Shown here piece after piece: positions 2,193 to 46,910 of a stretch of 46,910 nt of DNA. A program made the translations under genes and the position numbers. Each line of letters starts with the position of its first letter. Positions within the stretch are counted from its first letter, which is position 1. The notes under the pieces are model-generated. The model had not been told where the DNA came from and searched no databases. It saw only the letters and a program-made list of their open reading frames with translations. This stretch comes from a virus, in the IMG/VR virus record IMGVR_UViG_3300009509_000039, positions 1 to 46,910 of that record. One strand, 5' to 3'.

Positions 2193-2456
2193 ATGAAAAG
2201 CGCGACTCAACAATCCTTCAACCCCATCAACTACAACTTTTCTTGGACCGAGGACGGTTGGTATAAGTGGGATCGTACCGAGGCCCACAAGGCGGCGCGT
2301 AGGGCTCGCGATACCGAAATGAAAGCCCACCGTAAGGCCGGCGGCCGCTGTAAGGGCTGGACGAACCGAGATCAGCTTATCCGGAGGGGCGGGATCGGCT
2401 CTGGGCGCCCGGATGTTGAATTTTTCGTCAACGTCTACATGATAAATTATTACTAA
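2193..2456 (+). CDS. hypothetical protein
   Basis: This 87-residue protein is rich in Trp, Arg and Lys, with FSWTEDGWYKWDRTEAHKAA near the N-terminus and an Arg/Ala helix after it. No family is recognised with certainty. It follows the previous gene by 26 nt and has a purine-rich ribosome binding region (AAAGGGCGAGACG). The codon use matches the neighbouring early genes, which supports it as a real gene. Confidence 0.65.
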   Translation: MKSATQQSFNPINYNFSWTEDGWYKWDRTEAHKAARRARDTEMKAHRKAGGRCKGWTNRDQLIRRGGIGSGRPDVEFFVNVYMINYY

Positions 2457-2462
2457 ACCGAA

Positions 2463-2478
2463 ACCCCCTTTCGGGGGT
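2463..2478 (+). terminator. short GC hairpin, possible attenuator
   Basis: ACCCCC (2463-2468), loop TTTC and GGGGGT (2473-2478) form a perfect 6-bp stem just after a stop codon. No U-tract follows on the plus strand, so it may slow RNA decay or act as a weak terminator rather than a full one. Confidence 0.4.
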
Positions 2479-2536
2479 CGTCCGGGTTGCCGTCCGGGCC
2501 TGACGAGGTAGGCAAGGAAAAAAGGGAGCCGAGAAA

Positions 2537-39678: not shown

Positions 39679-41331
39679 TTAGGCGCCTCCCTTTTCCGTA
39701 AACGGCGACGGGGGGAGCTCGGCAAATTCGCGCCTTAGTTGCGCGCGGTTGGCAGAGCCGCTCGAGCCGTTCAATTTTCGTGCTACATGATCGAGGGTTT
39801 GTGCTCCCATCTCGACATAACCGCGATCGGCTTTTTGAGTTTTCGCCGGATCTATGTTCGGCATCGGTACACCGATCAAGTTACATTTTAGCCACGCCTG
39901 GCGCAAAACGGGATCGCTCCAACCCGGAGCCATGACGCGCCCGGCCGCGATTTCCTCGGATAGCCAAGCCTCGTAAACAGGATCGATAAAATCGGCTTTC
40001 AACTCGTCTCTCCAGATCGCGGCCACTTGCCAAAACAAAATCAACGCGGCTCTCGAGGCCGAGTAATTTTGTTCGAATTTCATTAATAAAACTTCCATCG
40101 GCATATTTGCCGAGGCGGCCAACGTCGATAAAAACGCGGACACAAACGCCGGGTAACTCTCGGCCGGCGCCGTGTTTTTAAATCCGTCGAGTAGCTCTCC
40201 CTCTTGTAGCGAGAAAATCCCGAGCGATCCAGGTTCCTTCATGGTCGCTTCCGGTAGCGCTACATACTGCAAATTATCCTGGAGAGACAACCCGGCGCCA
40301 GAGGCGGCCGGAGCGATCTGATTATCATCGTTTGATATAGGACCGGCAGCTTGTCCTAACGTCAAGCCTTCGATCGGATTCGACGCCGGGTTGTCTTTGC
40401 TCGGCTTGACGTACATGGCAATATTAGACTGATTGATCGCTTTTTTGATTTGTGCGCTTGTGAAATCGGTTAAATTTTCGAATTCTTGTAGTGCGTGAGA
40501 CAACCGGCTATAACCGCGGCCCTGGTCGAAATACTCCGGCATGTATCCATGAATCATGAAACGCCGTTTCGATTTCGGTCCCCATGCCGGGATCGTTTTT
40601 GGCACGTACTGATTATTAATAAACTGTAAAATCTGATAACCGATCTCTCGTCCGGCCGCGTCTCTGATTATTCCATCCTCCGAGACCTGGATACCGTAGG
40701 TTGACGTTATCGCGTCTCCTCGGATCTGGCCTGGATCGATAAATCCAATTTGTAACGGATTTTGGAGACCTCCGTTTTTCGTGTAGAACAATCTTACGAA
40801 ATAATCGTTGTCTCTCTGTTGGTAGATCTCAACAAGGCGTTGAGCCTGGTAAAAATTAAAATTCTCCGAGCGGATCGATTTTTTTGAGCTCGCCCAGAGA
40901 TGAAACCGCTCGTTTACTTGCTTTGACCATTCCTCGGCTGCCTCCGGAGCGATCCCGAGTATCGACGCGGCCGGCTCGGCCTCTAGCCGTAAACCGACAT
41001 TAACAACGGTATCGGCAAATCTCTGGACAACCGCTCGAGCCGGTAACGATTCGTGATAAGCGTTGCGCGCGTTGGCTCTCAGATACCAGTGATTTAGAGT
41101 AGGACTCCAACCGGTTCGTGCGAGACCGTAACGCCATTTGGATCCCTCGGATCCGTATCCGTAACCGTATCCGGGATCGATCGCGATCTGTGCGCCTATT
41201 TCGGACTCTCGTCCTGTTGCCCTCGACTCTGAACGCTCTCCACTAATCGATATTGGCTTGGAAATCCGAGCTCGAAAATCGAGATACTCTCGCGAGTATT
41301 TGTTACTGCCCATATGTTCATATATGTTCAT
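39679..41331 (-). CDS. portal protein (lambda gpB family)
   Basis: This 550-residue protein forms the DNA-entry ring of the capsid. Blocks seen include ANARNAYHESLPARAVVQRF, DFRARISKP-like start, LVEIYQQRDNDYFVRLFYTK, QIGFIDPGQIRG, GRGYSRLSHALQEFENLTDF, TSAQIKKAINQSNIAMYVKP, NMPMEVLLMKFEQNYSASRA and WLSEEIAAGRV. It overlaps the gpW stop by 4 bp (ATGA). Size and order (gpW then portal) are as in lambda. Confidence 0.9.
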   Translation of the reverse strand: MNIYEHMGSNKYSREYLDFRARISKPISISGERSESRATGRESEIGAQIAIDPGYGYGYGSEGSKWRYGLARTGWSPTLNHWYLRANARNAYHESLPARAVVQRFADTVVNVGLRLEAEPAASILGIAPEAAEEWSKQVNERFHLWASSKKSIRSENFNFYQAQRLVEIYQQRDNDYFVRLFYTKNGGLQNPLQIGFIDPGQIRGDAITSTYGIQVSEDGIIRDAAGREIGYQILQFINNQYVPKTIPAWGPKSKRRFMIHGYMPEYFDQGRGYSRLSHALQEFENLTDFTSAQIKKAINQSNIAMYVKPSKDNPASNPIEGLTLGQAAGPISNDDNQIAPAASGAGLSLQDNLQYVALPEATMKEPGSLGIFSLQEGELLDGFKNTAPAESYPAFVSAFLSTLAASANMPMEVLLMKFEQNYSASRAALILFWQVAAIWRDELKADFIDPVYEAWLSEEIAAGRVMAPGWSDPVLRQAWLKCNLIGVPMPNIDPAKTQKADRGYVEMGAQTLDHVARKLNGSSGSANRAQLRREFAELPPSPFTEKGGA

Positions 41332-41603
41332 CGCCGTCTTAGGCTTATACTAACGATCGCGCCTCCACGCAACTTACGCCAGATCTGATCGATCTGCGTC
41401 TCCAGGAGTCGGATCCATTTTCTGAGATCGTCGAGACTCCGGCGCTTTGTCTGCTGCGATCCCTCGTTACTGTCGAATTTATAGCTTTCAAGGGGATTGG
41501 CTAGGAGCTCGTCAAGTTGAGCCTCGGCCGCGGCAAGCTGATTTTCCTTTACTGTCAGCCTTTCCTCGAGGTACGCGCGCCGCGTGGCGGATAGATATGC
41601 CAT
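41328..41603 (-). CDS. head-tail joining protein gpW-like
   Basis: This 91-residue helical protein (RRAYLEERLTVKENQLAAAE, AQLDELLANPLESYKFDSNE, DLRKWIRLLETQIDQIW) has the size and helix plan of gpW-type neck proteins that bind under the portal. It is the first gene after the regulatory array. Its ATG follows a -10 box by 6 nt, with no ribosome binding site, so it is predicted to be leaderless. Confidence 0.75.
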   Translation of the reverse strand: MAYLSATRRAYLEERLTVKENQLAAAEAQLDELLANPLESYKFDSNEGSQQTKRRSLDDLRKWIRLLETQIDQIWRKLRGGAIVSISLRRR

Positions 41604-41609
41604 ACATAT

Positions 41610-41637
41610 ATAGTATTGTATTATATTCCGATGTCAA
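41610..41637 (-). promoter_or_regulatory. promoter P3 for the head operon, apparently leaderless
   Basis: TTGACA (41637-41632), a 16-nt spacer and TACTAT (41615-41610) on the minus strand lie 6 nt before the gpW ATG. The promoter starts three bases after the T-run of the terminator at 41641-41678. Confidence 0.72.
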
Positions 41638-41640
41638 TAT

Positions 41641-41678
41641 AAAAAATGGCCTCTCGGACGGGCAAAGGCCGAGAGGCC
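41641..41678 (-). terminator. rho-independent terminator T3
   Basis: On the minus strand GGCCTCTCGG (41678-41669) pairs perfectly with CCGAGAGGCC (41657-41648) around an 11-nt loop. A and TTTTTT follow (41647-41641). A 10-bp GC-rich stem with a U-run is a strong terminator. Confidence 0.88.
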
Positions 41679-41700
41679 AAGCAAGGAAATTGGGCGAGAC
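41641..41700 (-). ncRNA. predicted short RNA 2 (about 60 nt)
   Basis: Promoter P2 should start transcription near 41700 and terminator T3 should stop it near 41641. The RNA would be mostly the T3 hairpin with a 22-nt 5' tail. A 22-codon frame beginning at 41702 runs through the hairpin, but an ATG at or before the start point makes translation doubtful. No homology to a known sRNA is visible. Confidence 0.5.
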
Positions 41701-41706
41701 ATTACA

Positions 41707-41734
41707 ATTATATGGTATTTACAGGATTTGTCAA
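41707..41734 (-). promoter_or_regulatory. promoter P2
   Basis: TTGACA (41734-41729), a 16-nt spacer and TATAAT (41712-41707) match both consensus boxes exactly. The -35 box begins six bases after the T8 run of terminator T2. It has no gene of its own, only the short RNA before T3. Confidence 0.78.
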
Positions 41735-41740
41735 CTATTC

Positions 41741-41783
41741 AAAAAAAATCGGCCGCCCGTGCCTGGGAGTTACACGGACGGCC
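41741..41783 (-). terminator. rho-independent terminator T2
   Basis: On the minus strand GGCCGTCCGTG (41783-41773) pairs with CACGGGCGGCC (41761-41751). The only non-Watson-Crick pair is a G-U that is allowed only in the minus-strand RNA. GA and eight Ts follow (41748-41741). This orients the terminator clearly leftward. Confidence 0.88.
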
Positions 41784-41814
41784 TTTACCAGAAAAAAAAG
41801 GTTTCCGATGACCA
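41741..41814 (-). ncRNA. predicted short RNA 1 (about 74 nt)
   Basis: Promoter P1 should start near 41814 and T2 ends near 41741. The RNA would carry an internal T8 run (41799-41792), which is single-stranded and could bind Hfq-like proteins, and then the T2 hairpin. There is no convincing ORF. The function is unknown. Confidence 0.5.
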
Positions 41815-41820
41815 GTCTTT

Positions 41821-41848
41821 ATAATACTCGATCTCGGTCGATTGTCAA
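41821..41848 (-). promoter_or_regulatory. promoter P1
   Basis: TTGACA (41848-41843), a 16-nt spacer and TATTAT (41826-41821) lie on the minus strand. The first two bases of the -35 box are the last two Ts of the T8 run of terminator T1, so terminator and promoter physically overlap. Confidence 0.72.
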
Positions 41849-41876
41849 AAAAAATACTCCCGGCCGAAACCGGGAG
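41847..41876 (-). terminator. rho-independent terminator T1
   Basis: CTCCCGG (41876-41870), loop TTTCGG and CCGGGAG (41863-41857) on the minus strand are followed by TA and eight Ts (41854-41847). It would end transcripts arriving from the terminase gene. Confidence 0.85.
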
Positions 41877-41877
41877 A

Positions 41878-41903
41878 GCGGCCGAGAGGGGGGACTTGGC
41901 CGC
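41878..41903 (-). terminator. additional hairpin T0 after terL
   Basis: GCGGCC (41903-41898) and GGCCGC (41883-41878) form a 6-bp stem around a C-rich 14-nt loop, starting 6 nt after the terL stop. It has no U-run of its own and leads directly into T1. It may stabilise the terL mRNA end. Confidence 0.5.
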
Positions 41904-41908
41904 GGCTT

Positions 41909-43870
41909 TTATTTTAGCCGTTTCGTCTTCTCTGTCAACTGTCGCAAAACTTCGCGCCTGGTAATCTGCTGTAGCTGCGATGGGTGAGCTCCACGCGCCT
42001 TGTAAGCAGCTCGTAGATCCAGAACGGCGCTCTCTAGGTAGACATCATGAGCGGCCAGGTTAAGCACGCGACAATCAAGCGCCTCGTTTCGCCGGCCTCC
42101 GGCGTAATACGATCCGTCTCGTCTCTTTTCCTCGGCCGTCAACATTTTAAAATATGCCTCTGGATAGTCTCTCGGAAAATCACAAAAACCGGGTTTCTGC
42201 GGTCCGTCGTCTACCCTCTCGACTTTAAGATTTCTGTAAACTATGTTTTTGTAGTAATTTGTGGAAATCGAATATAGCACGGTATCTCCTACCCTCCGAG
42301 GTCGATACCGGTCGAAATTAAAAACACTCTTTTCGTCTTCTCCTCGGCCGGTTTTTTTCAGCATGCCGTAACCTTTAGTTGGAAATGTATTACGCCAGCC
42401 CGAACAAAAACGATAAACTACGTCCGTGTATTCTCCGTCTCCGGAATCGATAAAAATAACGACCGGAGAAAAAATCATTCCGTCGTCCCTCGAGTACTGA
42501 AAACTAGTTTTTATTGCCCACTCCCGGAGCGACTCCCAAGCGCCGCCATCAACCGCATCGGTCGAACCGTAAAAAATCTGATAGTCTACACTCCAGGTTT
42601 TGTATCCGGCTCCGTGTCCGCATATTTCCATCTCTATTCGTGGAGGGTTGCTCTCGTCCGTCTCGGATCCTCTCTGGACGTCTGCGCCGGCTGTCAGGAA
42701 CAAAACGCCGTCTTGAACCTGTTTGGCTAAATATGTACCGCGTGCCTCGTATACCTTTTCCGGTTTCGGCCTGGCGCCGATCTCTCGATACGGCAAGCCG
42801 AGATACAAATTTCGAAACGATCTCATCTCGTCCGGGTTTTCCTCGGCTTTCATGTATATTTGATAAATTTCGTGCCAGGTGAGCATGCCGATCGGGCTGT
42901 ATAATGAGGATATATGATACGATCGGAACGTCTTACTAAACGATTTAGATGTAGGCTCCCATCGGCCGTTTTTTAGCATGCTCCCTTTGTTGTTGTTTCG
43001 GATCGGCTCTCTGCAAAATTCGCAAAGGTAATAAACATCGTTCAACCAACCGGCCTTGGTATCTCCCTTAAATCCCCACTCCGAGTCTAAATTCCACTCC
43101 AACGCCTGGTACTTTCCGCAAAACGGACAAGGGACAAAAAATTTTCTCTGGTCTCCCTCCTCGAATTCGCGCCAAATCAACGATTCATCGTAGGTGGTGG
43201 GTGTCGAAAAATCTAAAACCTTTCGCCTGTGACCCCATGAATTTGTACGGGCATAACTAACGGCTAACCAGTTACCTTCACCGGTCCGCAACAAAACCGG
43301 AGCTCCGTCTATTTCATCGCGGATCAAAACTCGTTTATCGCTCGATCGTAGACTTGACGGGGATTGTGCCGAGACCATCTCGAGACAACCTCCGGCGTAC
43401 TCTTTTACAAAAATCGTATCTCCGGATCTCCGAGAGCGCCGATCCTGGCCTCCGGTTTGGGCATAGATTTTTTCTCGAATTCCGCAACTATCGATCAACG
43501 GCTCGAGGCGCTTTGTTGCCCATTTTTTTAAGAGTGGCTCCGTTGCCGAAATAAACATTATCTCGGCTGGACTCTCGTCTATCCAATACGCGATCACGTT
43601 TTCCGCGGCCGCGGTAAGTCCGATTTGCGCGCCCTTCATTACCGCCGTATGTTGTACCGGAGAAAACGGTCCCATGTTATCCATGATCTCTACACTGTAA
43701 GGTGTACGAGAATTACTCCAAAATCCAGGAAACGGAGTATTCGGAGGTAAGATCCTTTTATTCTCGATCCAGCTCGCGATCGAGTAGTTCGGAGGCTTGA
43801 TCGGCTTTTCATCGTTGAGAGTAAGCAGATAATCACAATCGGATTTATGATATATTTGATCGTGGTTCAT
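41909..43870 (-). CDS. terminase large subunit (lambda gpA family)
   Basis: This is the ATPase-nuclease that packages DNA. The frame is open to 44014, but the upstream part covers the preceding lipoprotein gene, so the start MNHDQIYHKSDCDYLLTLND at 43870 is chosen, giving 653 residues. Visible motifs are the Walker A-like HTAVMKGAQIGLT, Walker B VLIRDEID, a four-Cys cluster (CPFCGKYQ and CEFC), and the nuclease half with FLTAGADVQRG and VIFIDSGDGEYT. The family usually sits immediately after the small subunit. Here eight genes lie between. No strong ribosome binding site is seen. Confidence 0.9.
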   Translation of the reverse strand: MNHDQIYHKSDCDYLLTLNDEKPIKPPNYSIASWIENKRILPPNTPFPGFWSNSRTPYSVEIMDNMGPFSPVQHTAVMKGAQIGLTAAAENVIAYWIDESPAEIMFISATEPLLKKWATKRLEPLIDSCGIREKIYAQTGGQDRRSRRSGDTIFVKEYAGGCLEMVSAQSPSSLRSSDKRVLIRDEIDGAPVLLRTGEGNWLAVSYARTNSWGHRRKVLDFSTPTTYDESLIWREFEEGDQRKFFVPCPFCGKYQALEWNLDSEWGFKGDTKAGWLNDVYYLCEFCREPIRNNNKGSMLKNGRWEPTSKSFSKTFRSYHISSLYSPIGMLTWHEIYQIYMKAEENPDEMRSFRNLYLGLPYREIGARPKPEKVYEARGTYLAKQVQDGVLFLTAGADVQRGSETDESNPPRIEMEICGHGAGYKTWSVDYQIFYGSTDAVDGGAWESLREWAIKTSFQYSRDDGMIFSPVVIFIDSGDGEYTDVVYRFCSGWRNTFPTKGYGMLKKTGRGEDEKSVFNFDRYRPRRVGDTVLYSISTNYYKNIVYRNLKVERVDDGPQKPGFCDFPRDYPEAYFKMLTAEEKRRDGSYYAGGRRNEALDCRVLNLAAHDVYLESAVLDLRAAYKARGAHPSQLQQITRREVLRQLTEKTKRLK

Positions 43871-43880
43871 TATTCTGGTT

Positions 43881-44099
43881 TTATCGGCATCCCGTCTCAC
43901 ACTCCGCGCCGCCGTCGAGCTCGCAACACTCCCAAGTACGTTCGAGCGGATCGTAAATCTCGGAGCAATCCATAACCTCGCTCCAATCTCGATCTCCGTC
44001 GCATATTTCCACAACCTGACCAGAGCATCGGAGATCGTTCGTTTTGCAGTCGTCGTGATCGCAGGCGAGCAAAATTAATGCCACCAGTAATTTTTTCAT
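43881..44099 (-). CDS. small Cys-rich lipoprotein
   Basis: In this 72-residue protein, MKKLLVALILLAC is a compact type II signal with a lipobox LLAC, so Cys13 would be lipidated. The mature part is Cys-rich (CKTNDLRCSGQVVEICDGDR, WECCELDGGAECETGCR), a C...C.G.V..C...W...C pattern seen in secreted disulfide-rich domains. An outer-membrane protein for superinfection exclusion, or an o-spanin, are candidate roles. The ATG overlaps the stop of the metallopeptidase gene. Confidence 0.65.
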   Translation of the reverse strand: MKKLLVALILLACDHDDCKTNDLRCSGQVVEICDGDRDWSEVMDCSEIYDPLERTWECCELDGGAECETGCR

Positions 44100-46895: not shown

Positions 46896-46910
46896 CTTCG
46901 CGACATTTAG
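46896..46910. repeat. 15-bp direct terminal repeat (right copy)
   Basis: This copy is identical to bases 1-15. If the ends are joined, TTGGGCT (46891-46897) and AGCCCAA (14-20) form a 7-bp inverted repeat with an 11-nt loop spanning the joint. It lies between the end of the gpZ-like gene and the terminase promoter. Confidence 0.9.

Follow-up and report, generated by a model that had tools for sequence, protein, structure and literature searches.

Results

The sequence analysed here, referred to as the window, is the whole of IMG/VR record IMGVR_UViG_3300009509_000039, which is 46,910 bp in length with a GC content of 47%. Its late region lies on the minus strand and contains terS (phrog_57), terL, a gene in the position of gpW, and genes for the portal, protease, major head protein and tape measure. 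A gap of 305 bp separates terL from the gpW-position gene, and direct reading and a consensus scan of this gap and the end of terL reveal alternating promoters and intrinsic terminators in the order P0-T1-P1-T2-P2-T3-P3 on the minus strand (Table 1). An earlier note on this DNA had described T1-P1-T2-P2-T3-P3 in a gene-free gap, with promoters of the form TTGACA-16-TAnnAT or TACTAT. That arrangement holds, with P1, P2 and P3 matching 11/12, 12/12 and 10/12 consensus positions, though P0 had been missed.

P0-P3 all have sigma-70-type hexamers that match the consensus above chance, and T1-T3 all have a GC-rich stem with a U-run directly after it on the same strand. The spacer is 16 nt in all four array promoters and 17 nt in three other promoters that adjoin genes (808-, 1817+ and 46793-). 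Each T-run leads into or overlaps the next -35 box, as the note had observed: that of T1 overlaps the P1 box, while gaps of 6 nt and 3 nt separate the T-runs of T2 and T3 from theirs. The G-U pair in T2 does fit the leftward RNA, with a dG of only -16.7 on the complementary strand versus -24.8 leftward.

The array is not a product of chance. Four non-overlapping promoters scoring at least 10/12 occur in the gap, whereas 3000 dinucleotide-preserving shuffles of it average 0.039 and never (0/3000) reach four. Of five matches to TTGACA-N16-TAnnnT on both strands of the 46.9 kb, four fall here, and the promoter-terminator-promoter (P-T-P) pattern is matched exactly twice in the window but never (0.00) in 100 shuffles.

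A protein-coding reading of the gap is rejected. Two plus-strand open reading frames (ORFs) across it have no match in PHROGs or Pfam. The sole ATG-started minus-strand ORF of at least 8 codons contained in the gap is a frame of 22 codons that begins after P2 and stops beyond T3, and none of the three units has an ATG-started ORF enclosed by its promoter and terminator. Nor do known RNAs account for the region: Rfam 15 gave nothing at the gathering score in the gap (best E 0.79), in 18 relatives or in the L230 contig described below, and no tRNA or tmRNA was found in six relatives. The gap DNA has no homology to INPHARED phages. We also rejected the idea that the units are near-identical tandem duplicates, as the gap has no tandem repeat, just short common words.

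Table 1. Array elements, predicted RNAs and adjoining genes of the terL/gpW junction
Feature	Position	Strand	Description	Basis
terL	41909..44014	-	terminase large subunit, gpA type	PF05876, PF20454, phrog_15
P0	41911..41938	-	promoter TTGACA-16-TAAAAT, 11/12, in last codons of terL; predicted RNA start ~41904	consensus scan
Opposite-strand hairpin	41878..41903	+	terminator-like, same DNA as R0 5' hairpin, tail GGCTTTTATT	scan
R0	41849..41904	-	predicted RNA, ~56 nt; two adjacent hairpins, C/U-rich loop uCCCCCCu in the first	fold, -28.8 kcal/mol; 5' hairpin z -4.5
T1	41847..41876	-	intrinsic terminator; GC-rich stem 41876-41857, T8 41854-41847, dG -14.5	fold
P1	41821..41848	-	promoter TTGACA-16-TATTAT, 11/12	consensus scan
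R1	41741..41814	-	predicted RNA, ~72-77 nt; pyrimidine tract, then T2; ACUCCCA in terminator loop	sequence and fold
T2	41741..41783	-	terminator; 12-bp stem 41783-41751 with one G-U, T8 41748-41741, dG -24.8	fold
P2	41707..41734	-	promoter TTGACA-16-TATAAT, 12/12; sole perfect match in window	consensus scan
R2	41641..41700	-	predicted RNA, ~60 nt; 5' end unpaired and pyrimidine-rich, then T3	sequence and fold
T3	41641..41679	-	terminator; stem 41679-41647 (11-bp perfect outer stem), T6 41646-41641, dG -22.3	fold
P3	41610..41637	-	promoter TTGACA-16-TACTAT, 10/12; -10 end 6 nt from gpW ATG	consensus scan
gpW-position gene	41328..41603	-	head gene, 91 aa, opens P3 operon; no Shine-Dalgarno sequence	homologues between terL and portal in relatives
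Portal gene	39679..41331	-	portal protein, lambda family	PF05136, phrog_21

Relatives were gathered by portal and TerL searches of IMG/VR, and their protein identity to the window is at most ~60%; two GTDB genomes that contain a relative are metagenome-assembled genomes labelled Zixiibacteriota and Desulfobacteraceae. A promoter scoring at least 10/12, with its -10 box ending 4-11 nt ahead of the gpW start codon, is present in 43 of 95 distinct terL-gpW junctions; shuffles gave a mean of 0.44 and never more than 2. This shared position strongly supports P3 as the head-operon promoter, the role that the note had proposed for it. At a 9/12 cut-off, a promoter is found in the P3 position in 12/19 junctions where portal identity to the window is at least 55%, in 16/28 at 50-55% and in 23/30 at 45-50%, but in 1/8 at 38-45% and 1/6 below 38% (pooled, 51/77 at 45% or more versus 2/14 below). 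This split by portal identity marks the promoter as a feature of one clade.

The distance from -10 box to gpW start is 6 or 7 nt in 35 of the 63 junctions with a best promoter score of at least 9, a spacing at which transcription is expected to begin at or beside the ATG. The head-operon mRNA from P3 should thus be leaderless or nearly so, starting at the gpW ATG. The genes that appear to head operons in the window, at 773(-), 1852(+), 41603(-) and 46758(-), all have -10 boxes ending 6 nt before the ATG and lack the Shine-Dalgarno sequence that many internal genes possess. As to the gpW-position gene itself, Pfam and PHROG searches gave no match. Operator-like TGTGCCA words are repeated around P3 in L025, L026 and L071 and are absent from the window. 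In L004, L038, L083 and L096 the TGA stop codon of terL lies inside a TTGACA -35 box, such that promoter and gene end overlap.

Promoter-terminator units upstream of P3 recur in relatives and are lineage-specific. Across 33 gaps of 90-520 nt, the coding strand upstream of P3 has 12 promoters and the opposite strand has none, with 1.4 expected, and terminator-like hairpins number 12 and 10 on the two strands, with 1.2 expected in shuffles. The note had proposed a search of related phages for this alternation, and one or two units are indeed present in some: in L004 (TerL 58%), P3 is preceded by two promoters and one clear terminator; L038, L025, L026 and L055 have one unit each; and L028 apparently has two, with weak -10 boxes. 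In L037, L042 and L086 the slot is instead occupied by small ORFs with their own promoter and terminator, and the terL-gpW gap extends to ~1-3.5 kb in L024, L027, L052, L090, L094 and L095. With P3 common in the clade and the units upstream of it variable, the array is a local elaboration in an insertion-accepting slot before a conserved promoter. L025 and L026, whose portals are 81% identical, have in common a 5' CCCC-loop hairpin, the stem of which differs between them on either side, and a UUCUCU tract after it; these 5' elements persist while the terminator stem has changed.

Other structures are also seen at this junction. Just past the terL stop in L057, L058, L071, L106 and L180 is a GC-rich stem with a purine-rich, Shine-Dalgarno-like loop (e.g. 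AAGGAGGAGGAA) and no T-run. The terL-gpW gap of L021 (~2738-2870) has a tRNA-like element with CGGTCGG..CCGACCG ends and a T-arm-like GGAGGGTTCGACTCCC that was not called by ARAGORN.

A pattern scan of IMG/VR for TTGACA-17-TAnnAT-(40-70)-T6-(0-14)-TTGACA returned at least 74 distinct P-T-P matches, and 27 of those listed have a hairpin of -9 kcal/mol or lower before the T-run. Many phage contigs among the matches listed have single units with hairpins; over 5.2 Mb counting both strands, a chain of three P-T-P links occurs in the window only, and L230 has two. L230, an unrelated uncultivated phage, resembles the window at 2100-2410, where terminator-like hairpins alternate with TTGACA or TTGCAA promoters over ~300 bp without an ORF and T-runs directly precede the -35 boxes. 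It differs in its 17-nt spacers, in its mutually similar promoter copies, and in ending with a terminator-like hairpin instead of a gene promoter. The note had known of no described phage element with this repeated layout; the shorter versions in relatives and the ORF-less L230 array qualify this, although we found no paper on such an array in a phage in the open-licence literature, a search that left most subscription journals outside. A P-T-P unit is also shared by the phage contigs L184, L201 and L236, which resemble one another in the RNA 5' part (AACGTTCCAATAAGTAGCC) but not in the terminator stem; the L184 unit sits just past a capsid-like gene.

Long pyrimidine tracts are found in the 5' parts of the predicted RNAs across lineages (combined p 7e-8 versus other gaps). 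In ten RNAs of the family, exposed 4-mers resembling the anti-Shine-Dalgarno sequence sum to 35.3 versus 22.8 +/- 4.1, a value reached by 0/150 shuffles. R1 and R2 could also form a strong duplex with each other, its energy being reached by 0.5% of shuffles, but we do not use this as support because the pairing mostly involves bases within the terminator stems. Two broader generalizations were tried. A general two-hairpin RNA class is not upheld, the 5' hairpin being significant just in L025, L026 and R0, and the pyrimidine tract as a general trait of P-T-P units across phages is upheld just in part.

Elsewhere in the window, a type II hammerhead ribozyme (RF02276, 46.9 bits, gathering 37) is found at 2456-2517 (+), between two small early genes. 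The window ends, 1-15 and 46896-46910, have 15 nt in common (cttcgcgacatttag), which suggests a circular or terminally redundant genome.

Discussion

The analysis establishes the DNA layout, that chance would hardly produce it, the conservation of P3 and the recurrence of upstream units, while transcription, termination, RNA function and targets are inferred from these. We give a probability of about one half to the view that the gap holds tandem minimal small RNA genes that also insulate the flanking operons, ahead of a conserved leaderless head promoter. Two layers would be superimposed here. The first is P3, which would drive the head operon in a clade of lambda-like uncultivated phages, with its -10 box placed to start the transcript at the gpW ATG. 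The second would be a tandem of three minimal non-coding RNA genes (P0-R0-T1, P1-R1-T2 and P2-R2-T3), every one of them equipped with a host-type promoter and an intrinsic terminator. T1-T3 would halt transcripts arriving from the terminase operon, leaving the head operon dependent on P3, while the near-consensus P0-P2 would yield RNAs of 55-75 nt. The exposed C/U-rich stretches of these RNAs would most likely pair with purine-rich sequences at translation starts in mRNAs of the phage or the host, in the manner of LhrC- or RNAIII-type CU-rich small RNAs. That the window's sole perfect consensus promoter, P2, has no open frame ending before its terminator supports this view, and short RNAs from the array are likely. 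The earlier note's observation is thereby confirmed and extended and its interpretation partly supported. The P3 promoter and insulation between the packaging and head operons are well supported; the short RNAs it expected from P1 and P2 are favored by the anatomy and by the recurring units in relatives, but their number becomes three, from an array of four promoters.

Several observations weigh against small RNA genes as the explanation. L002 and L003, whose TerL is ~60% identical, carry no upstream units, and at ~60% protein identity the nearest relatives found are too distant for judging conservation of the R0-R2 sequences. The pyrimidine-tract result is exploratory, as the pattern was noticed before being tested, and 22 independent P-T-P units show it in part only (p 0.22 for CT versus AG tracts, p 0.001 versus flanks). 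Exposed anti-Shine-Dalgarno motifs in R0, R1 and R2 alone are not significant (p 0.27), and R1 and R2 show marginal predicted complementarity to phage start sites, at ~0.05 and 0.07 versus genome segments.

The array could instead be purely an insulator, in which stacked terminators stop read-through from the terminase operon, P3 drives the head genes, and the RNAs of P0-P2 are functionless by-products. The recurrence in relatives of terminator-like sites followed by P3, the enrichment of terminator-like hairpins on both strands of their gaps, and the opposite-strand hairpin at 41878-41903 are all consistent with this. Yet a single terminator would be enough, and near-perfect promoters without an mRNA, such as P2 (12/12), are not expected to survive unused. 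The confinement to the coding strand of promoters upstream of P3 (12 versus 0) and the closing of the L230 array with a terminator-like hairpin, not a gene promoter, also argue against insulation alone, which we consider possible but unlikely.

We find it improbable that the array is an antitermination relay in the style of lambda pR'-tR', where short RNAs would be the default and a late factor loaded at P0-P2 would let polymerase pass T1-T3 so that, late in infection, all promoters feed the head operon. Lambda's late promoter does have a strong terminator closely after it, and stacked promoters would sum. But P3, having no terminator-like site before gpW, would escape such control, and relatives, all of which require head expression, have anywhere from zero to three units. 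No antiterminator was recognised among the proteins scanned, which were not all of the proteins and were not given a dedicated search.

A slot that acts as an insertion hotspot for promoter-gene-terminator cassettes, with the window's units being morons that lost their gene, would fit the small ORFs and the kilobase-scale gaps seen there in relatives, but is rendered highly improbable by three consecutive near-consensus units without ORF remnants, by the tight 55-75 nt spacing in every unit and by the conserved non-coding unit of L025 and L026.

If the units are small RNA genes, it is conceivable, though we hold it to be very doubtful, that they serve as a late-stage translation switch, in which tandem C/U-rich RNAs block Shine-Dalgarno-dependent starts of host or early phage genes, and the phage's own leaderless operon-head mRNAs (terS, gpW) escape because they have no Shine-Dalgarno sequence. 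If Shine-Dalgarno sequences are indeed what the RNAs act on, this would give leaderless phage operons a rationale. This work identifies a testable, clade-wide feature in phages of uncultivated bacteria, a predicted leaderless promoter at the start of the head operon with a variable candidate small RNA slot beside it, and provides a comparative system in which one junction has zero, one, two or three putative small RNA units.

Among known systems, lambda pR'-6S RNA-tR' likewise has a promoter that yields a short, terminated transcript where late genes begin. It is a single unit with a longer RNA, controlled by Q antitermination and located before the lysis genes, whereas the window has three units and a separate promoter, without a terminator, before gpW to drive the head genes. 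The morons of lambdoid phages are additional cassettes of promoter and terminator that have entered the late region between genes. Relatives of the window similarly have cassettes with small genes in the terL-gpW slot, while the window's units have no gene between promoter and terminator. The prophage-encoded Pas small RNAs of E. coli are, like the predicted RNAs, short, phage-encoded and ended by an intrinsic terminator, but their copies are dispersed (PMC13192938).

LhrC, a multicopy small RNA of Listeria monocytogenes, uses CU-rich (UCCC) motifs in loop A, the linker and the terminator loop to block a Shine-Dalgarno sequence (PMC4132741). Ten RNAs of the family, predicted to end in terminators, together show a significant excess of exposed C/U-rich motifs, but R0-R2 by themselves do not. 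LhrC is bacterial, chromosomal and stress-induced, while the window's RNAs differ from one another in sequence, have no demonstrated sequence homology to it, and would be made in a phage late region ahead of a leaderless operon, with predicted target pairing that is marginal. LhrC is the closest described analogue, with a resemblance that lies in anatomy rather than in membership of a family.
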